Part shown: positions 1,240-22,510 of the stretch, in pieces
Numbering within the stretch: position 1 is the first letter of the stretch
Layout: every line of letters starts with the position of its first letter
Source of the DNA: a virus
Virus record (IMG/VR): IMGVR_UViG_3300021185_002019
Span: 1-27,922 of that record
Reading direction: 5' to 3' (one strand)
Length of the DNA stretch: 27,922 nucleotides
Position numbers and translations under genes: made by a program
Notes under the pieces: generated by a model
Told to the model about the DNA's origin: nothing
Seen by the model: the letters and a program-made list of their open reading frames with translations, nothing else
The model's database searches: none

Positions 1240-3308
1240 TAGTTGCTTATGAATTTACCTTTTGTTACCATAGTCTCGTCAGTACCATTATCAATACTAA
1301 TATAAAATGTATCGGATTTCATACCTCTAATAGAGTTTGCATTTTGCTCGTTAATCTTAAATAATACTTCTCCCTGTGACATATCCACATCTTTATTATA
1401 CACGTGGTTAAATTTTAATTTAGTCTTACCATCACTAAATGATAAGATAACTAATTCGGCGTTCTCAAAAGATATTAATTCGAAATCATCACCTTTCTTT
1501 TTGCTAATTACAAATTTAATATATGTAGCAAATGGTGGAATAGTAATAGTTAAATCACCCTCATTTACAAATTCACTAGTATCTAATTCTTCAACATCTT
1601 TAATCATATCATTATTACCAGCACCTACAAGTTCTACTTTAGCAGATGATGCAACAACATTATATCTTTCAACAAATGCAGGAACATATTTAATAGTTCT
1701 AGGCAGGTTATCTGTAATAAACCCAGATATAACTTTATTAGAAGTTAAACTAGGAAGTACATTGTATACCTCAGTTAAAATATTTGGATTATCAATTTTA
1801 AGCGCCTGTAATTTTTTACCGTATTTAGCAGCTTGATTTACCGTCAATGAAGCCTTCTTTGTAATCTGAGTATTATCTGTTTGATTGTAAATTCTCATGG
1901 TTACATCAATTGAAAAGTTTACAGCGACTCCTGCATTTTGAATAACAGGTCTAAAAGTAACTGGCGTACTAAAGTCTTCATATTGTGTAAATGTGTTTTG
2001 AGTAGTCTTAATAAACGAAGTACCTACTTGTTCAAATACATCTACATCAAATATTACAACTATATCATCAGATGAAGTTTGAATTCTATTTAATATATGA
2101 CCTTCAAAGCCTGCTATAGAATTATCTTTTTCACCGTAAATCTTAAAGTAATCTCCATCGTCAGCATCTTCTACATTAACAGTAAAGTCTACATACTCAT
2201 CTTCTCTAGCAACGCTAAATTTATTCTCTTCTCCAGTATAAACATAATCGTAACCACCTTTAGTTTCTAATCTATCTAAAAGTTTAAATGAAATTCCGTA
2301 ATTAGAAAATGGATTTAAGTCACTAGAGCCTATGCTACCATCGCCATAAAATCTGTCTTCGAATTCTGAATTCTGTCCAACTAAACTTGGGATCTTAATA
2401 TTAATATATTTAGACCATAGGGTTTCTCCTAAAATAAAAGGCTTAGGATTAGATAGTTCAAAGTTACTTTGATTTAAATAAACGATTTGTGTTAAAAAGT
2501 TTTTAATCCTAGTAGTTCTTTCAACGTCTACTTCAAATAGAAAGCCTTCATATCCTCTAGCAGCAAAACTAAAACCAGATCTTAAGTGTAGTCTTACAGT
2601 ATCATATAAGATAAAGTTAATATTAGCAGTTGCTTCTGTTTGATAGTCTAATAAAGAATCTTCTCTACCACCAGTCCACTCTAATGAATTATTAATAAAA
2701 TTTTGTTGTTCGTAATTACCGGTTGAATCGTAGCCTAATAAAGCGTATTTAGTTTTATCATTTCCAGGTACGTTTACTGCATGGTATCTACCAATTGTTT
2801 GATTAATATCATTTCCTGTTTCTTCATCAGGTGTAGCGAATAAAGGATTAGCTCTAGTATCTACAATTGCCTTACCACCAATTAAACCAGGATAAGAATA
2901 ACTCACGTTACCATTTACAACTGGAGTATATTCTGCAATATTAGTTATCGCCGAAAATGAATAAACACCTAAGTTATCACTAATCTCAAATAATTCAGGT
3001 TGTGGTAATCCATTTAAATCAAATTTATATGTCTTACCATTCTGCATTAGTAAAGTTCTAGCAGCAAAGTTTTCAACTGCAAGATACCCAGATATAATAG
3101 TAACGTCAAAGTTAACTACTGCGCTACCTAATTCTGAAATCAAGTGTCTAGTATTAAATGGACTATCTTTTATAGTGTCCAAAAATTTAACCTCACTACC
3201 ATTATCATCGACCTCGATGCGATACTTCTCTTGATCGCCCTGGTCGTGGTATATAAACTCAAGTAATATATCTTGGTCTATTCTAAAATATCTTGAAGAT
3301 TCAGCCAT
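1239..3308 (-). CDS. Large virion structural protein of unknown role
   Basis: This 689-aa protein appears to be mostly beta-stranded, with no signal peptide or membrane segment. It begins MAESSRYFRIDQDILLEFIY and contains an aromatic-rich stretch at about 288-310 (KPFILGETLWSKYINIKIPS). An extended acidic region lies around 365-390. The C-terminal half (about 380-689) reads like two or three Ig-like sandwiches. One of them, near residues 455-487, ends in a strand resembling BACON-type TVTQ strands (KKASLTVNQAAKYGK). I do not recognise a named family. Its size and position between fibre-type genes and a tube-like gene suggest a baseplate or tail-tip component. It begins three bases after the 268-aa gene ends and overlaps the next gene by one base, so the three are probably co-translated. 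Confidence 0.85.
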   Translation of the reverse strand: MAESSRYFRIDQDILLEFIYHDQGDQEKYRIEVDDNGSEVKFLDTIKDSPFNTRHLISELGSAVVNFDVTIISGYLAVENFAARTLLMQNGKTYKFDLNGLPQPELFEISDNLGVYSFSAITNIAEYTPVVNGNVSYSYPGLIGGKAIVDTRANPLFATPDEETGNDINQTIGRYHAVNVPGNDKTKYALLGYDSTGNYEQQNFINNSLEWTGGREDSLLDYQTEATANINFILYDTVRLHLRSGFSFAARGYEGFLFEVDVERTTRIKNFLTQIVYLNQSNFELSNPKPFILGETLWSKYINIKIPSLVGQNSEFEDRFYGDGSIGSSDLNPFSNYGISFKLLDRLETKGGYDYVYTGEENKFSVAREDEYVDFTVNVEDADDGDYFKIYGEKDNSIAGFEGHILNRIQTSSDDIVVIFDVDVFEQVGTSFIKTTQNTFTQYEDFSTPVTFRPVIQNAGVAVNFSIDVTMRIYNQTDNTQITKKASLTVNQAAKYGKKLQALKIDNPNILTEVYNVLPSLTSNKVISGFITDNLPRTIKYVPAFVERYNVVASSAKVELVGAGNNDMIKDVEELDTSEFVNEGDLTITIPPFATYIKFVISKKKGDDFELISFENAELVILSFSDGKTKLKFNHVYNKDVDMSQGEVLFKINEQNANSIRGMKSDTFYISIDNGTDETMVTKGKFISN

Positions 3309-3311
3309 GTT

Positions 3312-4118
3312 TTAAAATTGTAAAAATTTAGGTGACCAGTAAAGCCCTACGCCAATTGATGGCCCAGTACTAATTACTTGGTTATTGTTTAAGTTAATAC
3401 CATATCCAACTCCAAAACCAACTAACCATCTAGATTTCTTTTGATCTTTTCTATTTAATCTGCTATTAACCAGGTTTATATTTTCAATATCTTTAATCTC
3501 TAATCCAGGATAGCTTGTTGATAACTTTAATCTATCAGCTCCGTTTACATTTTCAATTGCTGCCATTAGGCTTAGAGTTTGTGTCAATTCAAACTTAGTT
3601 TCTAATACTTTAAATTTTTCAAATTCATATTTAAAGGTAGAAAACCCTGTTAGTTTTCTAGAGTTACCATCACCGAAATCTTCTGATGATGCAAACGTAA
3701 CTTTAGTAGTTGTCGTATCAATAGTTTCAGTTGTAGTAGTTACATCTAAACTATCTGTAATTTCTAAGTTAGCTGAAATTAATGAGTTAACTTCTTTTAA
3801 GTCATCATTAAGTGCTAACGCCTTTTTATACTTTTTAGTCAACTTAGCTTGGCTAGATTCTAGATTTGATAAATCAAATTCATAGGATCTAATCTGAGCA
3901 AGTTGATCTCCATTATCATTTCTTAGTATTGTAACTGAGTCTTGAGCAGCCTTAAAGTTATTAAGTTGTCTACCAGCATCTTCTTGTGCTAATTTAACAT
4001 CTTGTTTTAAGTTCTCAATACTATTACATTGTCTAAGAAAAAACAAACACAAAAGAGCTCCAGCGATAAATGTCACTAGAGTTCTATTTGAAAGTATATC
4101 TTTTATTTTTGTTACCAT
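3312..4118 (-). CDS. Membrane-anchored coiled-coil protein, candidate spanin
   Basis: This 268-aa protein has a basic N-terminus (MVTKIKDILSNR), one hydrophobic segment at residues 13-28, a long predicted coiled coil (about 32-118), a Thr-rich hinge (126-138), and a beta-rich C-terminal domain. The end (229-268) is glycine-rich with alternating polar and hydrophobic residues (WLVGFGVGYGINL ... GVGLYWSPKF) and finishes in Phe, like the terminal strand of outer-membrane barrels. An inner-membrane anchor, a periplasm-spanning helix and an end suited to the outer membrane together suit a spanin, which disrupts the outer membrane in the last step of lysis. That role is inference, as no holin or endolysin is visible beside it. 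Alternatives are a tail protein with a membrane-piercing segment, or a surface-exclusion protein. No convincing lipobox surrounds Cys24 or Cys31. Confidence 0.8.
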   Translation of the reverse strand: MVTKIKDILSNRTLVTFIAGALLCLFFLRQCNSIENLKQDVKLAQEDAGRQLNNFKAAQDSVTILRNDNGDQLAQIRSYEFDLSNLESSQAKLTKKYKKALALNDDLKEVNSLISANLEITDSLDVTTTTETIDTTTTKVTFASSEDFGDGNSRKLTGFSTFKYEFEKFKVLETKFELTQTLSLMAAIENVNGADRLKLSTSYPGLEIKDIENINLVNSRLNRKDQKKSRWLVGFGVGYGINLNNNQVISTGPSIGVGLYWSPKFLQF

Positions 4119-4153: not shown

Positions 4154-7111
4154 TTATGATGCTCCTGGCCAGCTACCTCCCGGTGCACATCCAGTACCTG
4201 TACCTGCTGATACAAATCCATTACCTAAACCTTGGTTTATGTTCATCTGCAGTACAGACATTGGCTGATCAGAACAGAATGTGTTTTGAGGAGTCTGGTA
4301 CGATGCACCTGTAGAATTGATACTAATATATGAACCGCCACATCCATAATTACCTTGTAATGATACAGGGAACGTGTAATTAGTGTTACCTAGATAGTAA
4401 ACACCACAGCCAGAACCATCACCTGAGCCGCCCGTTGTCGTTGTCGTCGTAGTTACACCACTACACGGCTGCGACGTGATTGGAGCTGAATGATTAGCGG
4501 TACCGTCTCCATGGAGGAATCCAGGTTCAGTACTACTTACTATTTTAAACCAGACACCGGCTGAGCCTGTATAATCAGGGTCTGTGGAAATTGCATTCCA
4601 AACTGTAGTAAACGTTGCCTTGCCTACGGACGGAGCATCATATACTGCGGTTTTAGTATTACTAGTCAGTTGACACGTACTATATTGATCGTAATTACCA
4701 TTAATAAACGTAACCGTATACGTTTGAGGATATGACGTGTCTAATACATCCACGCTAGTCTGTAAAGACCCTGTTGCGTTATTAGCTTCATCGTATGATA
4801 GTAAGCTAAATACAAGGGTTTCAGTACCTTCTAGGATTTCATCATTCTTTAATGTTATTGTATGACTACCTGTGTTACCATTCATAGTTACCCAACTACC
4901 CCAAGAAGAATTACTTGGTGAATCACCAGAGCCTGCGCCCGAAGACCAGCCTGATGTTACATCTGAGTAAGTTACTTGTCCAAGGTTCATATTCACCCAT
5001 ACACGTGTTCCGTTAGGTATGTTATTACTAGTTACATTTACTGTAACTTGTTGTCCTTCATTTACAGTTCCACTAGGGTTTGCTGATATAGCAGTATAAA
5101 CTGGCGCTGAGCTTACTGCTCCACCTGTTATTGTTACCACAATGCCATTGTTTGAAGTATTTGTAGTATGAGTTACATTAATTTTAATATTACCGTTAGC
5201 TGTAATAGAATCTACTGATGCACTACCCTGTGAAACAGAAACACTTACCTGGTTAGTACTTGTAAACTGATAACCTGATGTCGGCCTCATGTAAAAAGTT
5301 CTAGATACGCTAACACCCGCAGTTGCTATTCTAGTATCAGTATTATCTACTGGTGCACTCGGGTTATCACTAACATGTACCGTTGCATTACTTACCGTCT
5401 CACCAGCAGTCCAAGTAGTAGTATATGTTGGTGTTGCAGTCGTCGTTGAGGTAGTAGTTGTAGTTGTTGGATTATTTAATGTAAAATCAATTTGATCTGT
5501 ACAACCAATAACGTCTCCATTAGGCTTTGTGCCCAAATCATCAATAACCGCGTAATACTCTCCTGCAGCTAATGCAAATGGATTTGCTTGAATACCATCA
5601 GGTTTCAAATACACATTAAAATCATAGTTTCCAGAACCGCCCGATGCTGTCATTATATAACTACCATCTGTTCCACCGTATTCGCTAGGATTATTTTTCT
5701 CAACTTCTATTGCAGTAAAGTTTGCACAATATGTACAACTTCCATCGTCACTCGTAGCGTTAGGATCGTAGTTATCAGCATTAGCGTCTGTACAGCCTGC
5801 GCCGTAACTTGGATTCGCTTGTTGTGTAACATTTAACGTTGCTGTTGCAGAATTTTGTTGTGGGTGTCTAATTATTATACTCCCATTTCTAATACCTGCA
5901 GCATTAGCCTCTATTGTCATTGTAAGTTCAGGTTCATTATCAGATCCCATCGTACCTAAAATCTGGATCCACTCAGGTGTTGTAACATCACTTACGTTTT
6001 CAATAATCAGCCCGTCTACTGGTCCAGTTGTATAATCAATTGATCCTTGTCCTCCAGCATAAGATATGTTATTGTAATTACCACTATCTGGTCCAAATGC
6101 AATAGTCTTACTTAGCGTTGTAGTTGCTAGCGTTGTTGTTGTAGTTGCTAGCGTTGTTGTTGTTGTAGTTGTTTCACCATTCCATAAATCACCTTGATTA
6201 TCAACTTCTAAATTGCCACTTGGACTTATCTCAACTGTGTTACCCATTGGGTAACCATATTGATTTAAGCTTAAATCGTCACTAGGTGTAATACTAATAC
6301 TTACAGGATCTCCTCCGCCTTGTCCACAAGGGGACATACAGAATGATTTCCATGAAACATTTCCATTAGAATCTTTAACAGCACCCCAAAAAGTATCTCC
6401 AAAATATCTAAGCTCTCCGCCTTCTAAAACAGGACCATTAGTCTCAGGTAATCTAAATACACTACCTGTAGAATTATCTCCAAAACTAACATTAGTATTT
6501 TTAAATGTATACTTATCTAGGTTTACGAAATATTCAACTACTTCATTAGCATCTATTCCAAGTGTTTTGTTTAATTCAAATCTAGTCCAATCGGTTGTAC
6601 CGTCTGTTTGTTCAGAAGTACTAATTGTAATAGAAATATCATTTGTGGTATCGCCTCTTCTACCATGCCAATATGTTAGCAGCTCATGAGAAGGGCTTGG
6701 TCCGCCTACTGCATGTTTACCTATAGTTAAAGTAGCTCTTGACGTTGTAAAACCATCAAGGCCATTAACTTCATCAAATTCTTGATCTCCTAAGAATATT
6801 ACTGGATGGTAAACGTCATTAGATACTTTAGGTTTAAGTATTACATATTGGTTAACATTACCAGAGTTCTCGCTGACAGGAATCACTTTCCATCTAGACG
6901 AAGTTGCTCCAGTTTCACCCTGAGGTCCTATATCACCTTTTTGTCCCTTTTGACCTGTAAGTCCAACAGAACCTTGTACTCCTTCAGAGCCTTTATTTCC
7001 CTTAAGACCACCACCATTTGCTAAAATTTGGTCAAAGTTATAGTTAACCTTTTCCCACTTAATTTGGTTAGAGTCACTAGGGTGTAGTATTTCTTGAATA
7101 TTGATGGCCAT
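4154..7111 (-). CDS. Mosaic tail fibre with collagen-like, BACON-like, SprB-like and Calx-beta-like modules
   Basis: This 985-aa protein is probably a host-recognition tail fibre. Domains in order are: an attachment-like N-terminus (1-32, with I-x-E-I-L and N-Y-N-F-x-x-I-L); twelve Gly-X-Y triplets (35-70), a collagen-like trimer stalk; a beta-rich shaft (71-265); a Thr-rich linker (314-333); a BACON-like domain (335-432, with W381 and a final NVTQ); a Cys-Thr-Asp...Asp-Gly-Ser-Cys motif (439-462); a SprB-like repeat (463-548); a second Thr linker (549-560); a beta domain (565-650); a Calx-beta-like domain (672-793, with NDEILEGTETLVF); a third Thr linker (887-893); and a Gly/Cys-rich tip (894-985). 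The last five modules resemble pieces of flavobacterial surface adhesins. It begins three bases after the 3,045-aa gene, consistent with one tail-fibre operon. Which module binds the host is unknown. Confidence 0.9.
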   Translation of the reverse strand: MAINIQEILHPSDSNQIKWEKVNYNFDQILANGGGLKGNKGSEGVQGSVGLTGQKGQKGDIGPQGETGATSSRWKVIPVSENSGNVNQYVILKPKVSNDVYHPVIFLGDQEFDEVNGLDGFTTSRATLTIGKHAVGGPSPSHELLTYWHGRRGDTTNDISITISTSEQTDGTTDWTRFELNKTLGIDANEVVEYFVNLDKYTFKNTNVSFGDNSTGSVFRLPETNGPVLEGGELRYFGDTFWGAVKDSNGNVSWKSFCMSPCGQGGGDPVSISITPSDDLSLNQYGYPMGNTVEISPSGNLEVDNQGDLWNGETTTTTTTLATTTTTLATTTLSKTIAFGPDSGNYNNISYAGGQGSIDYTTGPVDGLIIENVSDVTTPEWIQILGTMGSDNEPELTMTIEANAAGIRNGSIIIRHPQQNSATATLNVTQQANPSYGAGCTDANADNYDPNATSDDGSCTYCANFTAIEVEKNNPSEYGGTDGSYIMTASGGSGNYDFNVYLKPDGIQANPFALAAGEYYAVIDDLGTKPNGDVIGCTDQIDFTLNNPTTTTTTSTTTATPTYTTTWTAGETVSNATVHVSDNPSAPVDNTDTRIATAGVSVSRTFYMRPTSGYQFTSTNQVSVSVSQGSASVDSITANGNIKINVTHTTNTSNNGIVVTITGGAVSSAPVYTAISANPSGTVNEGQQVTVNVTSNNIPNGTRVWVNMNLGQVTYSDVTSGWSSGAGSGDSPSNSSWGSWVTMNGNTGSHTITLKNDEILEGTETLVFSLLSYDEANNATGSLQTSVDVLDTSYPQTYTVTFINGNYDQYSTCQLTSNTKTAVYDAPSVGKATFTTVWNAISTDPDYTGSAGVWFKIVSSTEPGFLHGDGTANHSAPITSQPCSGVTTTTTTTGGSGDGSGCGVYYLGNTNYTFPVSLQGNYGCGGSYISINSTGASYQTPQNTFCSDQPMSVLQMNINQGLGNGFVSAGTGTGCAPGGSWPGAS
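4433..4453 (-). repeat. Thr-rich linker 3
   Basis: Residues 887-893 of the 985-aa fibre are seven consecutive threonines, just before the Gly/Cys-rich tip domain. Reading the minus strand, the codons mix ACT, ACG and ACA, so this tract is less uniform than linker 1. Confidence 0.85.
4733..5098 (-). other. Calx-beta-like domain of the 985-aa fibre
   Basis: Residues 672-793 show a V-N-E-G-Q-Q-V-T-V-N-V start, a Ser/Gly-rich loop, and the late motif L-K-N-D-E-I-L-E-G-T-E-T-L-V-F. This last part matches the acidic calcium-site strand of Calx-beta domains (D-x-x-x-E-G-x-E-x-x). Such domains are common in bacterial adhesins and bind calcium at the end of the sandwich. Confidence 0.6.
5432..5467 (-). 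repeat. Thr-rich linker 2
   Basis: Residues 549-560 of the 985-aa fibre are ten threonines interrupted by a single Ser and a single Ala. The linker separates the SprB-like domain from the next beta domain and uses the same ACN-codon pattern as linkers 1 and 3. Confidence 0.85.
5468..5725 (-). other. SprB-like repeat domain of the 985-aa fibre
   Basis: Residues 463-548 follow the SprB repeat pattern: a start strand, then G-G-T-D-G-S-Y-I-M (479-487), A-S-G-G-S-G-N-Y-D-F (489-498), an A-A-G-E-Y-Y-A-V-I-D-D turn-strand (515-525), then G-C-T-D and a final strand ending in Asn-Pro. SprB repeats build the large gliding adhesins of Flavobacteriia. Only one copy is present. Confidence 0.6.
5726..5797 (-). 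other. Cys-Thr-Asp...Asp-Gly-Ser-Cys motif of the flavobacterial adhesin type
   Basis: Residues 439-462 contain GCTDANADNYDPNAT followed by S-D-D-G-S-C-T-Y-C, with cysteines at 440, 459 and 462. The spacing and the Asn/Asp-rich middle match a short motif repeated in many secreted proteins of marine Flavobacteriia, often near type IX secretion substrates. Its function is unclear. In a phage fibre it is best read as a module acquired from a host surface protein. Confidence 0.75.
5816..6109 (-). other. BACON-like domain of the 985-aa fibre
   Basis: Residues 335-432 end in strands typical of BACON domains: a Trp followed by hydrophobics (W381-I-Q-I-L), then a strand of the type LTMTIEAN, a turn with Arg (R408-N-G-S-I-I-I-R), and a closing strand TLNVTQQ. 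BACON domains are common in secreted Bacteroidota proteins and have been linked to carbohydrate or mucin contact. The assignment rests on pattern only. Confidence 0.6.
6110..6172 (-). repeat. Thr-rich linker 1, containing a perfect 21-base tandem duplication
   Basis: This stretch encodes residues 314-334 of the 985-aa fibre: runs of seven, five and three threonines separated by Leu-Ala. At DNA level, 6117-6137 and 6138-6158 are identical 21-base units (each beginning gttgtagttgctagcgtt on the plus strand), followed by a partial third copy. The repeat is seven codons long, so the frame is kept. Confidence 0.9.
6902..7009 (-). repeat. Collagen-like Gly-X-Y repeat coding region
   Basis: Residues 35-70 of the 985-aa fibre form twelve uninterrupted Gly-X-Y triplets (GLK GNK GSE GVQ and so on to GAT). 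Charged X and Y positions (Lys, Glu, Asp, Gln) replace hydroxyproline, as in other phage collagen-like stalks. Such segments normally trimerise the fibre just past its attachment end. Confidence 0.9.
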
Positions 7112-7114
7112 GCC

Positions 7115-10100
7115 TTATGACGTTATTTTTACCATAGGTCTAATTCTATAAGAATAACCTAATCTTTTATTATATATCAACCTAAAATTAAGGGGCTTTT
7201 GTTCGTGTGATGAAAATTCAAAGTTTTGATCTGAATTATAGTTATTATCATCTAAATTACTGATTGTATCTACAATTTCTAAAGTAGAATCGCTACCTTT
7301 AAATCTTTTAGTATAAAGTTTAATCTGGTCTATATTAAAAGCGTTTATCAAATTCTTTCTAATATAAAGCTGTGCATCATCAGTTAATGTTGTCTTGTCA
7401 GCAGCTGAATTTACAGCTAATACATATTTCTTAATAGTATCTAAAACACCATCACCACTTAATTTTTTATTAATTGTAAAGTCTATGTAAAAGTCCATTA
7501 CAACTCTTTTTTTATCTTCAAATAATACAATATCTGTCTTATTTGTAGAATTAGCTAAAATATCATCTAGCTCTCCTTCTGTTTTAACTCGGTCAACTTC
7601 AAAGTTCAACATCGTGTAGCTGTCTTTTATCTTCATAATAGTAGAAGCTAAATACGATCTTTCCTCTTTAGTTTCAAATGTACCAGGAACTTCTTCGTTA
7701 ATCCCACCGGATAAAGATCTAGTATAATAGTTTTTATCCCATGAAGATTTGAATACATTCACATCTTTCTTATCAATAGCAATCTCTCCTATTAATGGGT
7801 ATAATGGTGGTTTATCAGAAGATACTGATAGTTTAATAACACCGCTAGACTTAAATTCATTTACTTTTCTATAGAAATGGTTTTTAATAATACCCCATTG
7901 AGCATCATGAGCACCTCCATCATAAATAAATCCTAAGTTAAATGCAACACCACATCTATTATATCTTCTATAATAGTCTTTAGCTAATTGAATCTCTTTT
8001 GTACTAGTTAAAGAGTGTTTATACATTTGTTCTTCTAATTCTAATTCAATAATATCGGAAGTATTTTGAAGAGTATTTGTTTTCATGTGAGTATACACGT
8101 CTGTAAAAGTTACAACCGGTGTTGTGTCAATAGTATATCCTCCATTATGTCTAATTAAGAATGGGTAGTAAACTCTAGTAAGTCCTAAATTATACCCAAT
8201 ATTACCTGAAGATAATTTAAAAGATTCTGGTTTATCATCATCCACATTAGTGTCTAACTCAGCCTTTTTAATAAATTCAACACCATCTTCTAATAAGATA
8301 ATAAATTTACTTAAACCGATACTACCATCTAACTCTACAGTAGAATATTTAATATTATCTGGATTCCTTAATAGCATATCCGCCATATCTTGTGCACCTA
8401 AAGACTCTAAAATATATTTGTATGCATTAACACCACCGCCCTTATACGTATATCTAGCATTATATTGTACATAACTAGGCAAGTCACTTAAATCAGTTGC
8501 AATACCGCCGTTTGAAAGATCTTTTGGCTGACTAGCAAGAGTTATTTGTGTTTGACTTTCTACGTTAGAAATATCAAGTTCTATTACTTTAGTTCCAAAT
8601 AATGTAGTATACTCTACGATTAAAGATCCAAATTCATCATCAGTATTTTTATTAATTTGTTCTAGGAACTGAGGTGGATTACCATCCGCGTGTTCTAGTC
8701 CATTTATTACTAAATAATCATCACCATCCGGATGAGTAAAATTAGCACCTGTTAAATCTAAATGTCCATCAATTTTAACATCAGAGTATTTAAAAGTACC
8801 TTCCTCATTATTCCATACTAAAGAATGATTTAATTCATACAATAGTTTTCTGGTTAGAGTTTGATCTGCCCATAAATCATCTATGCTTAAAGAGATAAAG
8901 AATACAACGTATTTAAATTTCTTATTTTGTATAACCTCATACTCAATTCCATTAGAATCTTGAGACGTTTTTACGTTTAATACAGTACTAAACCTATATC
9001 CATTAAATTCAGAAGATTTAACGAAATCCACTGGACTTGAAGCGTTAAACTCTTTTCTGTTTTTAAATATTACTTTTAGACCTTTAAATATTGTATCTGC
9101 AAATGCAGTATCATTACCACCATTTACTAACGTGTATTTCTTTTGTCTATTAGTTTTTACAAATGTCTTATATTTGTTATCACCCGAAGTTTCAAATCCT
9201 TCAGTAACAAAGAATCTATCAAAATAATCATAGTTAATATCCTTAAACATTGCCGGAGACATTTCAATACCATCCATGAAGTTAAGATAACTAAATGATT
9301 CATTTAATCTATATTCTGGATTAGTATAATCCCCTTGATTTTCTTTTAAATACTTTGGTAAGTTATTAATATAAAACCACTCATGGGTCATACCAACTCT
9401 ATTTCTTCCACGAACAGAAAGATCAGCCGAGAAGTTAGATCTACCAAATGCCTCATTAGCATTTAAATAATATGGTTGTTCTCTAACGGTTAAAGTATCT
9501 TTTAAAACCCACTTATTAATTGTAGGCACAACTCTAGATTGAATTGCATACTCTTTTAAATAGTTTTCTTGCAATCTATCATACTCGCTTAGTACCTGCT
9601 TTTCGTTTGCCTCATCAGTTCTTTCCTCTTCTAACACATCACTTAATCCAGTAAAATAACTTACTGGTGCTTTTAAATAATCTGAACTACCTCTATCTCC
9701 AAATGGATATATGTCACTTTGATTATCTATTTCAGGTTCATAGTTAATATTATTAGCTACTTCCCATTGTAATTCTTTTAGTTCTGAATTAGCAGTATCA
9801 TAGAAATCAAAATTCATATCATGAATATCAAATGCTGAGAATAAACCTAGCCTTACTAAGTTGTCTGCAAATACATTTACTTCTCCGTCTTCTAATGTGT
9901 TAGTTTTTTCTAAAATTAGTTTCTTGTATTCTAAAGGTAATCTTTCAATATCATCTACAATATCAATTACTTTATTGTAAACTCCTATAGAACTAGTTTC
10001 TAAATAATCGTTAACATTAATATCCGCAACAGAATCTAAACTCGCTAATACTGATTTACCTGCTGAATTTCCACCGTTAAAGAAATAAATCTTACTAAAT

Positions 10101-13100
10101 CTAAATGTATTAGAAGTACTACCTGTAAGTTGTAATCTAAGTTTATTGTTTTCAGTATATTCAATTTCATTAGCGCTGTCGACATGTACCCAGTCATTAG
10201 CGTTACCATTAGGTACTGCAATTCCGGACTGCATTAACCTGTAACCTACCACATCATTTTTTATATAAAGATGATCAGCTCCATCGTATGTTAGTGCGGT
10301 AAACCCATTATCTTTTGAGTTAATAGATTTTGTTAAAGCCTGTGCTATTTCAGCATTAGTACCCTGTGTTGAAAACGCAGTAGTATTAAAATGTCCAGCA
10401 GGTAATGCATCGGATCCAAAATACATATTGTTTTCTAAATCAAAAGGTACTTGAGTATATTCAACTCTAGCGATTGATATATTGTTAGAACCAACAGGTT
10501 CTATTATTGGATTAATTGAGTTAAGTGTAACTTTTTTCTCATATATTAAGAAATCATTACCATCTGCTTTAAAAGTTAAATTAGCATCAAATATACCAGG
10601 GTTTGAATCAATAAAATGAGATATAGTTTGCTCCATAGTATCTTTTAACTCTAACCCAAACGTATAAGTTACATTATTCCATGTATTAGAGCTTTGATCT
10701 AACGTATTAAGAGTAAGCGATAAATTATATAAATCTCCCGGATTATATCTTACAACCTTAATTCTATAATCCTGTTCTTTAGAAGGGAATATAGATATTC
10801 TATCATTATTAGCAGGAGTCTCATTAATAGTAAGTTTAACAAAATCACTTTCAGCAAGTGTGTTCTTAATTATATCAATAGATGTTCCAACTTCCGCTAG
10901 TTTAATTTCATTAGAAATTAAGTTAGTAGAATCTTCAACACGTAATTCTAAATTTGATGTATCGTAATACGAGTCTGTTGAAATCTTGTAAAAATTATTA
11001 GAAACATGAGCATATCCTAAAGTAGGAGTAGACGACATTAGTTTAACAGGTGGTATTGCTGATTCTGAATCTTCGTTAATATAAGAGTTTAATGTTTTAA
11101 ATTTAAGTAATCCATTATTAGCAGACTCTAAAGTACCATACCCTGAATCAACATCATTTACATATAATCCGAAATATCTATTTACAGCATAGTCATCTGC
11201 TCCATCATCATCAAACAAAAACTCTAAGTTAATAAGATTTGCACACGCTAATTTATTTCTTTCAAAACCTGCAGTAATTAATTCATTTTCAGAAATAATA
11301 GTCTGGTCTTGTTTTACAAAATCATCAAATAAGTATTCACCTTTATTTGTAAACCCACCTCTTACTAAGTCAATACCATTAAAATTTGTTCTTTCATTCT
11401 CTGAAAAGTTTACACTAATTGGATTGCTTGGAAATAATTCAGATTGTACATGATTTCTAAGATATGTACCTATGTTAGAATCTCTAGTTAAATCAAATGT
11501 TTTAATTAATTCACTATTCTTTAAAATTTCATTAATATTATTAAAGTTACTTTGTGTATCAAAGTCTAGCACTGCAGCTGGATCACTAACTCTAAATATT
11601 ACAAAATTAGAAGGAATATTTTTATCTAGCCAAATAGGAGCTAACATTCTAAAGTCTTCGTTATGTAGTTTAGAATAGTTATATGTTGTACCATAATGGT
11701 AATCTTCTTCTATTTGTTTTTCAAAAGATTCTTGTACTGTAAAGTCTGAGAATCTAGATTTACTAAAGTATACTATATCAGATGGAGTCTTATTGTTATT
11801 AAAGAATTTTGCTAAATCATAAGACCATTTACCTAATTTATTAACAGGCCATTTCTTATATTCAACTGACGCTAACTCTTTCGTAGCATCAATAGACTCG
11901 ATATACATAGCATCAGTACTATTAACAACTAACTTAGCATTAGTGGATAATTTAGGATTTGTTCTTAATAAAGGTTTAGATAAATTGTCTAACTCATAGT
12001 TCTTCTCTAAATTAAAATTAGGAAGTGATCTATTAATTACATCAGCATCGTTAATAGAATCTAATGTAAATGTGTTTGCGTCACCAGTATCAAGTATACA
12101 GTCGATACAGTTCTCTCTATATTCAATTACTGCGTTACTAGCAAAACCTAATTCAACCGGGTTTATTTCTACCACTCTAACATCACTGCCATACTCTGGT
12201 AAATTTAATGCAATTGTACTAGCATCATTATAGTTAACTGCAAATATTTTATGTTGTAGTGCTACACATTCCAACATGGTATCACCACTTAATTTTAAAC
12301 GTACTCCTGCATTCACACCAGGCTCTATTACGTCTATTAATTTTTTAATATATGAAGTAGAATTAGTAGCAAACGTATGTAACCCATCTACTATATAAAG
12401 GTTCCAGTATGGATCACCACCCTCAATCTTAGACACGCAAGAATAAAAGGCATAAAATACATTAGTTCTAGATGTGTCTAGGTCAGAAGTCGTACAATCG
12501 TTATTAGGAAGGCCTAAACAGAAATTCTCATGTCCGTCTGGTTGTTCAAAGTTAGCTACACAATTACCTAATATAGTATTAGTTGTTGAATATTCTAAAT
12601 TTAGCGTAGTTGCATCTGCGCCTACCCAAGAATACGTAAAATTATTAGCCGGAATACCATCAACGTATCCGGAATCATTTTCATTATCCCATATAGCAAA
12701 CTTTCTTTCGACTCCAGGTATATAGCTGTTTGGATCTGTTTCAGTTAAATCAACTCCTGACTTAATTGCAACAAACACTGTGGTTTCCCATAACCCATTA
12801 TAGTTAACAGAGTTAGCATCAGCTTCAGTCTTATATACTAAAACCTGATTTTTCATCACATATTCTAATGCACCGTAATGTGTATTAAAAAATGGAGTTG
12901 AGCCCTCCATGGTTGCAAGATCTAATCTAACATATAAATCTACTTTAGTTAAGTCATCATCTTCTAATGAACATATAGCATCTACAGATTCTCTATTTAA
13001 CTCACTGTAAAACGCATTAAATTTATATGTTCCATATTCAATCTCTATAGGACAATTCCATTCGTATACTGTTTGGGTGTCGTTTACGCTAGAAGGATTC

Positions 13101-16100
13101 CATACACCTTGGCCTTCTGCGTTTGTAGTAAATTCATAATAAATTATCTGATTAGGATCCGCATCTCTATTATCATCATTATAGAATCCAGGAGCCACAC
13201 ATAAAGATGCCGGCGCATACGTGTTTGCAATATTAGTCGGATCATTTCGATACTCAGGTTGATTAGCATAATATTGACTAGTAAATAATTGACCTCCTGC
13301 ATTTATTACAGCTTGTAAAGATACAGCTGCATCATCCGGGTTAATTACGTTTTGATAAACAGTAGCCTGAGTTACTGTATAATCTAGGGGTCCTGGTTGA
13401 CATAGGTCATTTGAATTAGTAGAGTAATTAATATCAATAGGCCATGCATAATCAAGAGTCTGTGCACAATCAAATATTTGTTCTATTGTACCGTCCGCCG
13501 CTAACTTAACCACCCTTATTACAACATTGCCTGCAACATCTTGTTGAATAGAATGCCATGGACCATCAGATCCGGGTATAAATTTATCTGAATCTTGTAA
13601 AGTATTTTCAGTGTAAAGGAAATGACCAGCTTCTAATAAGCTTACACTTTGTGCAACATCTGCATCTAAAAAAACATCTGTTGGTCTATTCTCATCACAT
13701 GCAGATGCCGAAGTAAGTTTCCCGTTTGCAGATATAGTAGTTCCACCAATAAATGATACACCTGTTATTGTTAATTGTAGTGTATACGAGTCTTCTCCAC
13801 CAAATTCATCTCTTACTTTAATAATGTAGTAGGTATCATAAGGCGTGTTTGGTTGCATATCCCAATCGCCTGATTCATAGAACCAAACACCATTGTTTTC
13901 ATTAATGCTAAAATTACCCTTTTCTTCGTTTACCGAATTATTACTACTAGCATCCCACTCTGCTGACCATGTAAGGGTATGTCCCTCTCCATCAGTAGCA
14001 GAAATAGGTACATTTGGAGTGACTGCTTCGTATTGAAGTGCATTAAAACTGATTGTATCAGTATTAGCGTTATTGTTAATCGTTATGACCGGAGGTGTGT
14101 TTAGAGCAGCCGTCATAGTTACAAATATTCTAGCACCACCTGAAGATTCACCTTCGCTATCAGTAGCCGTAAACCAAAACTCATCTACTACATCATCATC
14201 ATTTGGAGTTAGTGTATTCCCGGTATATGTATATTGTAAAACACCATTGGCTTCAGTAAACGTACCGTGAAGTCCAGTTCTATCACCAGCAGTAAATAGT
14301 ACTGCATTGGCACCATTTGCATTATCTACCCACTTGTAGATTAAAGCAGCAGGTGCGTCATTATCATCTGATGCTAAACCAGCGCTACCAAACGCAAACG
14401 GGTCAGTAGTATCTCCATTTCCTGCACCTACAATACTTATTGACTTATCAATCGCGTTCGGTGCTTCATTTGCAGGAGGTGAAACTAATAACGTTACAGT
14501 ATATTCTGGAGATTCTAAATCTCCGGAATCTTTTACTTTATATTTAAAGTTAATATTCCCAGCTTGCGTTTCACCTAACTCACTATAAGGTGTTAACTTT
14601 ATAGTTCTAGCAGGTCCGACTAATGTATATGGAAGATCGTTAGAAGTAATAGTTGTAGATGAACTATCTGAACTATCTTTTAATGTAGCGCTAAAATTAC
14701 CTACGGTTAATCCACTAATATCAGTTATTATTACATCCGGGTTATCACCGTCTTCAAGATCATTAATTGCAGTTCCAGTCCAATTAGCTGCCACTGGGCT
14801 CTTAAAATCTAAATCTAGAGCAGCTACTGAAGACTGCCATGTAATTTGTCTACTTAAATTACTTCCAATTGGTGGTTGATTACCAGCTGATTGCGTAATT
14901 GTAAACGCTGTTGTTTGTATTGAATCATCTTCTGGGTGTTCTAATTGAACTTCAACACTCCTAGGTTGTGCTCCTGTGTATGCGTTCGCTGAAAACTGTA
15001 AATTACCACCACTAGTAGTAAAGTTATCTAACGAAACATTAAGCCAAGAGTTACTACCCGCTGTATATTGAATATGAGTTCCTGTGCTAAACCCAGTTGC
15101 ATTACCCTCAATGGTAACTATTTTAGTTTGAATAGGATTACCAGTTGAATCAAATGCAAGATCATTAGTATTATTAAGACTAATTGTTTTTGCTACTGCG
15201 ACAGTAACACCGGGCGTAGGACATGATAATAGTCCTCCTGAATTATTATATCCACTACTAGGTATGTTAATGACTACATCGTAGTCTCTGCTTCCAGTTG
15301 CTGCATCAAATACAGCAGGGCTTATAGAAGATATTGTTACTCCTGCAGCGACCGTTGTATTAGCTTCTACATTTGCACCTGGGGGTCCGTCTGCAATAAC
15401 GATTTGAGCATCGCTACAGTCAAACTGTGCTAATGTGGTTTGCGCGACAGTTACCTCATTTGCGTCAATTTGACATTGAATAGCTGCGCCGCCATTATTT
15501 GAATATCCAGCAGGAACTTCGATTCCTGTAATAGTATAAGCACTACCTGGAATTAAAGTGTTTGGAGTTACTACCCAATCATTATCAGCAGGAGCTACTG
15601 CCCATTGAACCACTACAGGATCTCCGTGTGTTCCAGAATTAATCGTCGGTCCAGCTACATCACAATCATATAGCGGGTCATTCTGTACTACAGTTACATT
15701 AGTTTGAACACATGCTTTATTACCATCTACATCTCCACCGCTCCAACCGCTTGGTAGTGAAAATTTAACACGATACGTGTTTTCACCATAAACGAAGCCC
15801 GTGGATGTTGTTGCGTCTTGTACAACCTGGCCCGTAGCATCATTTAATCTAACTTCAATCAGTGATGGCATATTACCACCCTTAACGTTAGTACCGTATG
15901 TAATTGTAATTAAATCTCCTTCGGTATTCTCTCCCAATCCACTTGGATTAGCACCAATATATCCAAAATCATCCGGATCACTACAATCCCATGCCGGCAT
16001 TGACTGGACACTAAGTATGCCACCGTCAGCAGCAACTTGCCATATTTGACGACCATCGTCTTCAATCCAGAATTGATCTTGACCATCAAACGTTTGATTC

Positions 16101-16252
16101 TGGTCTACGCCTTGGTAAACGGGTTCAGATGTATTAGTACTTGCTGCGTTAACATCTTCTAATCCAGTTGTAGGTTTAGGGTTTAACCTAGCAGCATCAA
16201 CTGCCGAGTCGTAATCTGAATAACTTGTATTTCTAAATTGGTAATTAGCCAT
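7115..16252 (-). CDS. Giant tail protein: adhesin-like N-terminal modules fused to a large structural C-terminus
   Basis: This 3,045-aa protein, the largest in the window, is a single uninterrupted frame. Residues 1-86 form an N-terminal segment. Residues 87-356 hold three related Cys-pair repeats. Residues 357-456 resemble a BACON domain (W403-L-N-V-S ... TAFTITQ). Residues 458-832 are three Ig- or cadherin-like sandwiches whose closing strands share a D-x-x-G/S pattern (VKDSGDLESPEYTVTLLV, TATDSEGESSGGARIFV, VRDEFGGEDSYTLQLTI). Residues 833-1400 are unassigned, with scattered Cys. From about 1400 to the end the character changes to Asn/Asp/Lys-rich structural sequence, starting near KPLLRTNPKLSTNAKLVV (1426-1443). 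I infer that the C-terminal 1,600 residues belong to the tail or baseplate body and that the N-terminal 1,400 are a displayed adhesive region. It could be a side fibre, a baseplate hub protein or a central tail-tip fibre. No protease, hydrolase or peptidoglycan-binding motif was seen. Confidence 0.9.
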   Translation of the reverse strand: MANYQFRNTSYSDYDSAVDAARLNPKPTTGLEDVNAASTNTSEPVYQGVDQNQTFDGQDQFWIEDDGRQIWQVAADGGILSVQSMPAWDCSDPDDFGYIGANPSGLGENTEGDLITITYGTNVKGGNMPSLIEVRLNDATGQVVQDATTSTGFVYGENTYRVKFSLPSGWSGGDVDGNKACVQTNVTVVQNDPLYDCDVAGPTINSGTHGDPVVVQWAVAPADNDWVVTPNTLIPGSAYTITGIEVPAGYSNNGGAAIQCQIDANEVTVAQTTLAQFDCSDAQIVIADGPPGANVEANTTVAAGVTISSISPAVFDAATGSRDYDVVINIPSSGYNNSGGLLSCPTPGVTVAVAKTISLNNTNDLAFDSTGNPIQTKIVTIEGNATGFSTGTHIQYTAGSNSWLNVSLDNFTTSGGNLQFSANAYTGAQPRSVEVQLEHPEDDSIQTTAFTITQSAGNQPPIGSNLSRQITWQSSVAALDLDFKSPVAANWTGTAINDLEDGDNPDVIITDISGLTVGNFSATLKDSSDSSSTTITSNDLPYTLVGPARTIKLTPYSELGETQAGNINFKYKVKDSGDLESPEYTVTLLVSPPANEAPNAIDKSISIVGAGNGDTTDPFAFGSAGLASDDNDAPAALIYKWVDNANGANAVLFTAGDRTGLHGTFTEANGVLQYTYTGNTLTPNDDDVVDEFWFTATDSEGESSGGARIFVTMTAALNTPPVITINNNANTDTISFNALQYEAVTPNVPISATDGEGHTLTWSAEWDASSNNSVNEEKGNFSINENNGVWFYESGDWDMQPNTPYDTYYIIKVRDEFGGEDSYTLQLTITGVSFIGGTTISANGKLTSASACDENRPTDVFLDADVAQSVSLLEAGHFLYTENTLQDSDKFIPGSDGPWHSIQQDVAGNVVIRVVKLAADGTIEQIFDCAQTLDYAWPIDINYSTNSNDLCQPGPLDYTVTQATVYQNVINPDDAAVSLQAVINAGGQLFTSQYYANQPEYRNDPTNIANTYAPASLCVAPGFYNDDNRDADPNQIIYYEFTTNAEGQGVWNPSSVNDTQTVYEWNCPIEIEYGTYKFNAFYSELNRESVDAICSLEDDDLTKVDLYVRLDLATMEGSTPFFNTHYGALEYVMKNQVLVYKTEADANSVNYNGLWETTVFVAIKSGVDLTETDPNSYIPGVERKFAIWDNENDSGYVDGIPANNFTYSWVGADATTLNLEYSTTNTILGNCVANFEQPDGHENFCLGLPNNDCTTSDLDTSRTNVFYAFYSCVSKIEGGDPYWNLYIVDGLHTFATNSTSYIKKLIDVIEPGVNAGVRLKLSGDTMLECVALQHKIFAVNYNDASTIALNLPEYGSDVRVVEINPVELGFASNAVIEYRENCIDCILDTGDANTFTLDSINDADVINRSLPNFNLEKNYELDNLSKPLLRTNPKLSTNAKLVVNSTDAMYIESIDATKELASVEYKKWPVNKLGKWSYDLAKFFNNNKTPSDIVYFSKSRFSDFTVQESFEKQIEEDYHYGTTYNYSKLHNEDFRMLAPIWLDKNIPSNFVIFRVSDPAAVLDFDTQSNFNNINEILKNSELIKTFDLTRDSNIGTYLRNHVQSELFPSNPISVNFSENERTNFNGIDLVRGGFTNKGEYLFDDFVKQDQTIISENELITAGFERNKLACANLINLEFLFDDDGADDYAVNRYFGLYVNDVDSGYGTLESANNGLLKFKTLNSYINEDSESAIPPVKLMSSTPTLGYAHVSNNFYKISTDSYYDTSNLELRVEDSTNLISNEIKLAEVGTSIDIIKNTLAESDFVKLTINETPANNDRISIFPSKEQDYRIKVVRYNPGDLYNLSLTLNTLDQSSNTWNNVTYTFGLELKDTMEQTISHFIDSNPGIFDANLTFKADGNDFLIYEKKVTLNSINPIIEPVGSNNISIARVEYTQVPFDLENNMYFGSDALPAGHFNTTAFSTQGTNAEIAQALTKSINSKDNGFTALTYDGADHLYIKNDVVGYRLMQSGIAVPNGNANDWVHVDSANEIEYTENNKLRLQLTGSTSNTFRFSKIYFFNGGNSAGKSVLASLDSVADINVNDYLETSSIGVYNKVIDIVDDIERLPLEYKKLILEKTNTLEDGEVNVFADNLVRLGLFSAFDIHDMNFDFYDTANSELKELQWEVANNINYEPEIDNQSDIYPFGDRGSSDYLKAPVSYFTGLSDVLEEERTDEANEKQVLSEYDRLQENYLKEYAIQSRVVPTINKWVLKDTLTVREQPYYLNANEAFGRSNFSADLSVRGRNRVGMTHEWFYINNLPKYLKENQGDYTNPEYRLNESFSYLNFMDGIEMSPAMFKDINYDYFDRFFVTEGFETSGDNKYKTFVKTNRQKKYTLVNGGNDTAFADTIFKGLKVIFKNRKEFNASSPVDFVKSSEFNGYRFSTVLNVKTSQDSNGIEYEVIQNKKFKYVVFFISLSIDDLWADQTLTRKLLYELNHSLVWNNEEGTFKYSDVKIDGHLDLTGANFTHPDGDDYLVINGLEHADGNPPQFLEQINKNTDDEFGSLIVEYTTLFGTKVIELDISNVESQTQITLASQPKDLSNGGIATDLSDLPSYVQYNARYTYKGGGVNAYKYILESLGAQDMADMLLRNPDNIKYSTVELDGSIGLSKFIILLEDGVEFIKKAELDTNVDDDKPESFKLSSGNIGYNLGLTRVYYPFLIRHNGGYTIDTTPVVTFTDVYTHMKTNTLQNTSDIIELELEEQMYKHSLTSTKEIQLAKDYYRRYNRCGVAFNLGFIYDGGAHDAQWGIIKNHFYRKVNEFKSSGVIKLSVSSDKPPLYPLIGEIAIDKKDVNVFKSSWDKNYYTRSLSGGINEEVPGTFETKEERSYLASTIMKIKDSYTMLNFEVDRVKTEGELDDILANSTNKTDIVLFEDKKRVVMDFYIDFTINKKLSGDGVLDTIKKYVLAVNSAADKTTLTDDAQLYIRKNLINAFNIDQIKLYTKRFKGSDSTLEIVDTISNLDDNNYNSDQNFEFSSHEQKPLNFRLIYNKRLGYSYRIRPMVKITS
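13757..14881 (-). repeat. Three tandem Ig/cadherin-like domains of the 3,045-aa protein
   Basis: Residues about 458-592, 596-714 and 717-832 each open with a Pro- and Asn-rich start (NQPPIGSN, NEAPNAID, NTPPVITI) and close with an acidic turn followed by a strand. Domains with this N-x-x-P start and D-x-x-G end are common in bacterial adhesins as rigid calcium-stiffened stalks. Boundaries are approximate. Confidence 0.65.
14885..15184 (-). other. BACON-like domain of the 3,045-aa protein
   Basis: Residues 357-456 contain W403-L-N-V-S, then GGNLQFSANAYTGAQPRSVE and the closing strand TAFTITQSAG. The Trp, the Arg-S-V/A strand and the final T-x-T-Q order match the BACON pattern. This is the second protein in the window with such a domain. 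Confidence 0.65.
15185..15991 (-). repeat. Three divergent Cys-pair domain repeats in the 3,045-aa protein
   Basis: Residues about 88-191, 195-272 and 276-356 align by eye. Each starts with Asp-Cys (C90, C197, C279). Each has a late P-x-G-Y/W-S/N-N/G-x-G-G turn (SLPSGWSGGD, EVPAGYSNNGG, IPSSGYNNSGG), then a second Cys (C181, C260, C344), and ends in a V-T-V-V/A-Q-type strand. The Cys pairs suggest disulfide-closed sandwiches, which would form only outside the reducing cytoplasm. Confidence 0.7.
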
Positions 16253-21946: not shown

Positions 21947-22510
21947 TTACGATATTGTTGCGTTGTGTGAACCAACAACATACCATTTAGAGTTAAAACA
22001 TCTAAGTGTTACAGTTGAATTAGCTTCGTTCAGTGCTATTGTAGCAGCTCCAATTTCAGCGCCATTATTCCCTTGTACCATAACAGTAGCGGATGCTACG
22101 TTAATAAACGTAACTTCTTGTCCATCAACTCCAACCGGTACACCAAAGTTCCCAGCAATAAAGTAAGTACTCTTATTTAAACTAGAAGGTGTTGAGTTAT
22201 TGGTAAATGCTGTTGCAGATCCAGCAACTCCTGATTTGATGATTGAACCACCAAATGTCGCAGCGCTAGTAAATGTTGCAGCCGTACCAATTTGAGCACC
22301 TGATGAATTTACAACAAATAATGTTGTTCCGTCAACTACACTTAATTGTTGTGCTGTAGCAGATGTTAAACCGCTTAAGACTCCAGTCACAGGGTTTAAT
22401 AATGCTGTTACAGACGCTAATTCGTCATTTAACAATTCAAAGTTACTATTGATAACTGGTCTTGTCGATGAAACCGAGTCTGTACCTAAAATTTCAGTAA
22501 TGTTTGCCAT
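21947..22510 (-). CDS. Short tail-fibre-like protein with a docking-type N-terminus
   Basis: This 187-aa protein begins MANITEILGTDSVSSTRPVI, followed by an N-S-N-F-E-L-L-N-D-E-L helix. This kind of start (I-x-E-I-L, then N-x-N-F-x-x-L) is shared with the 985-aa fibre here and suggests a common attachment peptide. The rest is Ala/Thr/Ser/Gly-rich (40-130), with short strands reminiscent of repetitive fibre shafts, then a small C-terminal beta domain (130-187) that includes NSKWYVVGSHNATI. The C-terminal sandwich might be a receptor-binding or trimer-capping tip. Its short length suggests a decoration or short fibre. The start is preceded by A/T-rich sequence (AAAATAAATATAAAATGG) without a Shine-Dalgarno. 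Confidence 0.85.
   Translation of the reverse strand: MANITEILGTDSVSSTRPVINSNFELLNDELASVTALLNPVTGVLSGLTSATAQQLSVVDGTTLFVVNSSGAQIGTAATFTSAATFGGSIIKSGVAGSATAFTNNSTPSSLNKSTYFIAGNFGVPVGVDGQEVTFINVASATVMVQGNNGAEIGAATIALNEANSTVTLRCFNSKWYVVGSHNATIS

Follow-up and report, generated by a model that had tools for sequence, protein, structure and literature searches.

A diverged gp9/gp10-type N-terminal head probably shared by a short tail protein and a collagen-stalked fibre of a relative of giant phages

Can two tail proteins that differ over most of their length be held to a phage baseplate through one and the same N-terminal peptide? This question is raised by a 27,922-base virus record (IMGVR_UViG_3300021185_002019), hereafter the window, in which all long ORFs lie on the minus strand. 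In 5' to 3' gene order it encodes a gp25-like baseplate wedge protein with weak matches (P0009, 27427-27783), a gp6-like baseplate wedge protein (P0008, 25590-27419), an 89-aa protein, a 933-aa protein (P0006, 22518-25319), the 187-aa P0001 (21947-22510), proteins of 645, 1,220 and 3,045 aa, and the 985-aa fibre P0002 (4154-7111). The P0001 and P0002 genes are part of a tail module holding gp6-like and gp25-like genes, and the P0001 gene lies directly downstream of the 933-aa gene. Among relatives of the window gp6-like protein, 23 of 32 phage records are, by organism name, phages of Bacteroidota genera, 15 of them of Prevotella. The original prediction held that P0001 and the fibre open with a common attachment peptide for a shared baseplate site, in front of otherwise different proteins.

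The P0001 head reads I4-T-E6-I7-L8, D11 and N21-S-N23-F24-E-L-L27, and the fibre head reads I5-Q-E7-I8-L9, D13 and N23-Y-N25-F26-D-Q-I29-L30. From the D to the N of the IN or VN pair the distance is 10 in both, and the two heads differ by one inserted residue and outside the core. The predicted I-x-E-I-L box, acidic residue and N-x-N-F-x-x-L are present in both proteins, except that the fibre strictly has N-x-N-F-x-x-I, with its L one residue later. The remainder of the two proteins differs, as had been proposed, with a downstream local score of 46 versus a shuffled mean of 53. Pairwise alignment was dropped as proof of the head resemblance, being non-significant among the 91 window protein pairs: 36 of 2000 shuffles of the pair attain its local score of 29, the best of the 91 pairs does so in 357 of the 400 shuffled sets, a score of at least 29 is also found for two other window pairs, and BLASTP of P0001 against the fibre gives an E of 1.1. 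In the 462-kb phage LR756500.1 the two corresponding heads are closer to each other, with a score of 41 that is reached by 2 of 5000 shuffles. As judged by sequence comparison the head resemblance is real, yet it is unproven by the two window sequences alone and takes its significance from relatives.

Relatives of P0001 were collected by an IMG/VR scan, which found 134, with 80 loci kept. Together with the window and the window's own copy these gave 82 P0001-family ORFs, 44 of them distinct, and the conservation figures refer to an alignment of 34 family ORFs. One of the six search patterns lay inside the head (residues 23-30), so that retrieval was biased, and none lay within residues 1-14. 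These first fourteen residues, the proposed docking peptide (22469-22510, minus strand), are identical in all 34 aligned relatives; their codons are silently different in 27.6% of 7,854 comparisons and show no replacement, a pattern that indicates strict constraint at the protein level. A relative in record G010, outside the 34-row alignment, has L at position 13. Mean pairwise identity in the family is 88% for residues 15-44, 50% for residues 45-90 and 57% for residues 91-187, the head being the best-conserved part of the protein. Pfam PF07880 (T4_gp9_10_N) matched neither P0001 nor P0002 at E 0.1, and for the 34 aligned P0001-family members no PF07880 match was listed at E 10, a setting at which the HMMER filters drop most matches above 0.1. 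NCBIfam and PHROGs returned nothing useful for P0001. The Pfam matches of single P0001 relatives were set aside, as they are scattered over 14 families, each in one or two of the 34 members, and look like chance.

The fibre also keeps a constant front. Its relatives (30 loci) were found using the first 262 residues, with one search pattern inside the head. Residues 1-35 (7007-7111, minus strand) form the head, in which I3, I5, E7-I8-L9, D13, K21, N23-Y-N-F-D-Q28 and G33-G35 are invariant in 16 aligned rows. Residues 35-72 (6896-7009, minus strand) carry collagen-like Gly-X-Y repeats, with nine glycines at steps of three invariant in the same 16 rows; Pfam Collagen (PF01391) scores 19.1 bits here, under its curated cut-off of 27.2. 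Collagen-like stalks are trimeric in other proteins. Compared with the L082 fibre, to which the window fibre is identical, the first 100 residues align in 28 of 28 other fibre sequences, 13 sequences align near residues 300-400, and at most five align in any block past residue 500; five of the 29 fibre entries (L115, L116, L117, L123 and L124) are truncated copies of records already present. Thr-rich runs occur at residues 314-334, 549-566 and 887-893. More collagen-like repeats were seen tens of kb from the tail module (G001:C1, 17.5-38 kb; G010:C1, 154-159 kb), in ORFs without the head register described below.

Comparison of head profiles, from which sequences with identical first 60 residues had been removed, links the two families more closely than the single sequences do. 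The hhalign P was 5.9e-6 with P0001 as query and 1.3e-5 with the fibre as query, and the best of the control heads (11 N-terminal families from the same loci) reached 0.061 against P0001 and 0.019 against the fibre. With the distant LR756500.1 sequence included, the fibre-head HMM ranked the P0001 family first among the non-fibre rows of 1,749 N-termini (E 0.13); without its sequence the P0001 family dropped to E 18, behind nine other rows. In the reverse direction, the window fibre was absent among the 61 non-family matches listed for the P0001 head HMM. Among 728 ORFs from distant phages and LR756500.1, the P0001 head HMM placed the LR756500.1 fibre second (E 0.075), and in the search with the fibre-head HMM four unrelated rows came ahead of the P0001 relative from LR756500.1 (E 0.46).

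The common spacing can be written as D-x8-[IVL]N-x-[ND]F-x2-[IVLM], a register that was formulated after seeing its examples in P0001, the fibre, T4 gp9 and T4 gp10. Across 2.0 Mb, with 1,182 distinct ORFs of 100 aa or more, it has 67 matches, each starting within the first 45 residues and all belonging to P0001 or fibre family members, T4 gp9 or T4 gp10; shuffles give 1.0 match overall and 0.15 within the first 45 residues. Since these loci were collected with the very proteins in question, the telling figure is the absence of other carriers. Two long relative records (212 and 167 kb, read almost whole) provide the search in related phages that had been suggested: among 967 stop-to-stop ORFs of at least 70 aa, only P0001 and the fibre have the register, once per protein in each record and four times in all. 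In the window, the register pattern gave no third head-bearing protein. The N-terminus of the 1,220-aa family, considered as a further head, was twice the best control (P 0.019 to the fibre and 0.0047 to gp10 heads) but lacks the register and was rejected.

Both proteins occur in 12 of 12 long relative records, which were chosen for holding P0001 or the fibre. LR756500.1 likewise encodes both and has the same gene order save for two extra ORFs of 415 and 370 codons. At a greater distance the picture changes: in PTm1, pT24, Lak-B5 and four other huge-phage records, all with a gp6 homologue, a scan out to 18-20 kb from gp6 gave no such head, and neither did a second stretch of Lak-B5. Thus, the motif that was expected to persist in homologues is kept in the relatives of P0001 and the fibre, but was not found near gp6 in the distant phages scanned.

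The AlphaFold2 model of P0001 (mean pLDDT 81) consists of residues 1-14 at a pLDDT of about 50 or lower when folded alone, a helix at residues 17-44 (22379-22462, minus strand), short strands at 48-74 and a confident C-terminal beta domain. The predicted helix shows 4-3 hydrophobic spacing (I20, F24, L27, L31, V34 and L38) that runs on to residue 45, whereas in the fibre such spacing ends at the collagen-like stalk; the helix is probably a trimeric coiled coil, to judge from the model and this spacing. The beta domain (residues 91-185; 21956-22240, minus strand) is predicted to have the XD1 fold of T4 gp9, T4 gp10 and CBA120 TSP4. VIA-align gave eleven matches with Z 5.9-10.6, all on residues 89-185, and the next match had Z 4.2. 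They include T4 gp9 (1qex, Z 7.0, rmsd 2.8 over 83 residues), T4 gp10 (5iv5, Z 5.9), CBA120 TSP4 (7rej, Z 7.9), 24qj (Z 10.6), 6o38 (Z 9.8) and 4dny (Z 7.5). The superposition covered the XD1 part only and not the coil, and single matches under Z 8 are no proof, as a Z near 7 alone can reflect a common arrangement. Foldseek gave one match under E 0.001 (6o38), with T4 gp9 and gp10 absent among the best 50 matches listed. In the available part of a study of TSP4, the structural relatives named for its XD1 domain are gp9, gp10, CpaA (6O38) and StcE (4DNY) (PMC8825819); the fold matches of P0001 coincide with them, so that the same set was recovered independently.

It is the T4 proteins that suggest what such a head may be. 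T4 gp9 and gp10 (NC_000866.4), both with strong PF07880 matches, have the same register as P0001 and the fibre, with the spacing D-x8-[IV]N-x-[ND]F-x2-[IL], and the 4-3 hydrophobic spacing that starts at the IN or VN position is found in P0001, gp9 and gp10 and is shorter in the fibre. At the profile level the fibre head matches T4 gp10-type heads with P 4e-6 (7e-6 in a second comparison). The corresponding values with the P0001 head as query are 5.3e-4 and 1.3e-3; with gp10 heads as query P0001 reaches 0.0064, and the 1,220-aa control family is better (0.0047). Against gp9 heads, P0001 (P 0.02-0.03) performs like the controls (0.04). As far as these profiles indicate, the P0001 head is thus weakly linked to T4-type heads.

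In other phages, too, T4-type heads appear on more than one kind of protein. A scan with gp10 residues 1-154 found 53 loci, some of them near copies, of which seven match the whole query and 41 of the 46 others match no further than residue 56; since two of the six search patterns were placed inside the head, heads were favoured. Six of these proteins, five of them cut at the locus end, were compared with Pfam: T4_gp9_10_N matched from its start in 6 of 6, three above the cut-off (residues 1-46, 1-55 and 1-85) and three below. In the T4 genome the head profile has exactly two copies, namely those of gp9 and gp10, and 11 other records have between one and three copies each; the count of one to three gp10-type heads per record holds for T4 and for the records behind L233, L240, L241 and L259. 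The near copies G018 and G021 have three head-bearing proteins whose sequences beyond the head, within the extent of the loci, lack BLAST similarity to each other, and G020 has two such proteins, likewise without similarity. This comparison of bodies took long ORFs only as far as the 3.1-kb loci extend and left out a 196-aa ORF of G020, the second ORF of G013 and both ORFs of G023. As T4-type heads recur on bodies unrelated by BLAST, the window pair looks like a far-diverged case of something recurrent.

Like T4 gp9, the long tail fibre socket (PF07880 plus T4_gp9_10_C, PF23618), P0001 has the register (D-x8-IN-x-[ND]F-x2-I in gp9), an XD1 domain (the middle domain of gp9, predicted in P0001) and a gene in the baseplate cluster. 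Unlike gp9, it ends after the XD1-like domain and has no Pfam match, and the protein upstream of it cannot be recognised as gp7 or gp8. The T4 baseplate wedge protein gp10 shares the head register and the XD1 domain, and like the window T4 has two head-bearing proteins; gp10, however, continues with T4_gp9_10_C, Gp10_D3 and Gp10_C, for which P0001 is too short and in place of which the fibre has a collagen-like stalk. The N-terminus of CBA120 TSP4 (AD-XD1-XD2-XD3) resembles P0001 in its XD1 fold, whereas its baseplate anchor is a triple-stranded beta-helix, according to the accessible text of PMC8825819, in contrast to the predicted helical head of P0001. The fibre is similar to collagen-like phage tail fibres (PF01391 region) in the Gly-X-Y stretch behind its head, but with a match under the Pfam cut-off and with most of its 985 aa made up of other, variable sequence.

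We consider it probable, at roughly 0.6, that both heads are a diverged form of the T4 gp9/gp10-type head that docks on the baseplate wedge and nucleates a trimer, carried by a minimal gp9-like protein and by a collagen-stalked fibre. The first 30-44 residues of P0001 and the fibre would then be two copies of one head. Its first half, the extended peptide from I-x-E-I-L to D, would fold on a wedge partner by analogy with gp9, and its second half, IN-x-NF-x-x-L, would supply the opening turns of the parallel, three-stranded coiled coil through which the trimer is formed. After the head, P0001 would have a short beta segment and its XD1-like domain, so that it resembles gp9 or gp10 cut down to the N-terminal and middle domains, and the fibre a collagen-like stalk and a fast-changing distal part. 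The head would fix both trimers to the baseplate edge, and its constancy would leave the distal parts free to change. Observed here are the common register, its conservation, the co-occurrence of the two proteins and, as a prediction, the XD1-like fold; we infer the trimer state, which the heptad spacing and the collagen-like stalk suggest, as well as the docking on the wedge, the identity of the partner and the use of equivalent sites. For the T4 proteins, the available part of PMC3004832 describes a gp9 N-terminal domain that binds a domain of gp7, a gp10 whose first 200 residues are 23% identical to gp9, a gp12 that sits on the gp10 N-terminal domain, and a gp10-gp7 contact near Cys555. As the partner given there for the gp10 head is gp12, gp9 is the one precedent for docking through the head.

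The head resembles the beginning of a trimeric coiled coil, so that it may be conserved in part because of a need to form trimers. It is even conceivable, though unlikely, that the head is a short coiled-coil nucleus that starts trimers and has no docking role, the two heads being alike because both proteins must begin a trimer. The 4-3 hydrophobic spacing that P0001 shares with gp9 and gp10 and, in shorter form, with the fibre, the predicted helix of P0001, the direct passage of the fibre head into a collagen-like stalk and the gp12-bearing role of the gp10 N-terminal domain in what is available of PMC3004832 all speak for this. The most constrained part of the P0001 head, however, residues 1-14 with the I-x-E-I-L box, precedes the helix and is predicted to be unfolded alone, in the two long records the register is confined to P0001 and the fibre, and the matches of other collagen-like stretches in relatives to the fibre profile begin no earlier than position 13, and mostly at 31-41. 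Chance resemblance between two unrelated N-termini would suit the pairwise score, which shuffled window sets so often equal, and the poor rank of the P0001 family once LR756500.1 is removed from the fibre-head HMM. Given the profile match, the conservation, the uniqueness of the register in the two long records and the better match between the LR756500.1 heads, we regard such a coincidence as very improbable.

A stronger form of the proposed wedge-docking head would have both proteins dock on one socket, e.g. the 933-aa protein, either in competition or in fixed proportion. The single shared head, the presence of both proteins in every long record and the position of the P0001 gene right behind the 933-aa gene are consistent with a common socket. 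But T4 gp9 and gp10 occupy different places on the baseplate despite their shared head (PMC3004832, as far as its available text goes), so that a shared head need not mean one shared socket. Furthermore, the two heads are set apart by an inserted residue and by differences outside the core, and relatives of the 933-aa protein occur in three distant phages in which no head was found (PTm1, pT24 and Lak-B5, the latter read with code 15). Thus, what stands of the proposed common attachment peptide is an N-terminal head, conserved at the protein level and common to two different tail proteins, and its proposed shared baseplate site appears rather doubtful.

The 933-aa P0006 is a candidate socket by position only. 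Neither a PDB profile search nor hhalign supports its identification as gp7: against a 25-row gp7 profile, from which one truncated locus (L265) and sequences of up to 950 aa were left out, it gave P 0.48, and its middle part gave P 0.25-0.34 against gp7 region 640-900. The AlphaFold2 model of P0006 is poor (pLDDT 57), and T4 gp7 was absent among the best 50 matches listed for it; the protein is predicted to contain beta domains, whose arrangement around a conserved middle part the model did not resolve for that part. The 645-aa and 1,220-aa proteins were compared with gp6, gp8, gp9, gp10, gp11, gp12, wac and gp7 without support, the best P being 0.0015 for part of the 1,220-aa family against gp7.

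If the preferred reading of a diverged wedge-docking head holds, the finding is known in kind and new in place: a gp9/gp10-type head, invisible to Pfam, on a minimal gp9-like protein and a collagen-stalked fibre. It would widen the range of the T4 gp9/gp10 arrangement to phages whose gp6 relatives come mainly from Bacteroidota phages, would explain how fibre ends can change with attachment kept, and would offer a rule, based on sequence, by which baseplate-edge proteins could be recognised in uncultured phages, many of whose tail genes are without an assigned function. The head, about 30 residues long, was encountered solely as the first part of the 175-position gp9/gp10 domain of Pfam, and the accessible portions of the literature searched, which included PMC3004832, PMC11406892, PMC12796354 and PMC8825819 and had the main T4 baseplate structure papers outside its scope, contain no description of it as a separate unit. 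It is tempting, albeit tentative, to regard this portable head as a docking code that contractile-tailed phages use in general, from T4 to the giant phages, and by which any trimer carrying it is placed on the baseplate edge. A single phage could then display two or three kinds of spike or fibre on similar sites, and from the code alone one could predict which genes of unassigned function encode them.

Three minor observations concern other genes of these loci. The 268-aa protein at 3312-4118 of the window has a weak match to an Rz-like spanin (E 0.0011). In LR756500.1 the extra 415-codon ORF (L112:22181-23425) lies between the relatives of P0001 and of the 645-aa protein, and its start resembles, by eye and presumably, a GIY-YIG endonuclease. 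Finally, only residues 1428-1704 and 1953-3043 of the 3,045-aa protein (7115-16252 of the window) match its positional counterpart in LR756500.1, a gene of about 1,530 aa, so that the window copy has a long extra front part.
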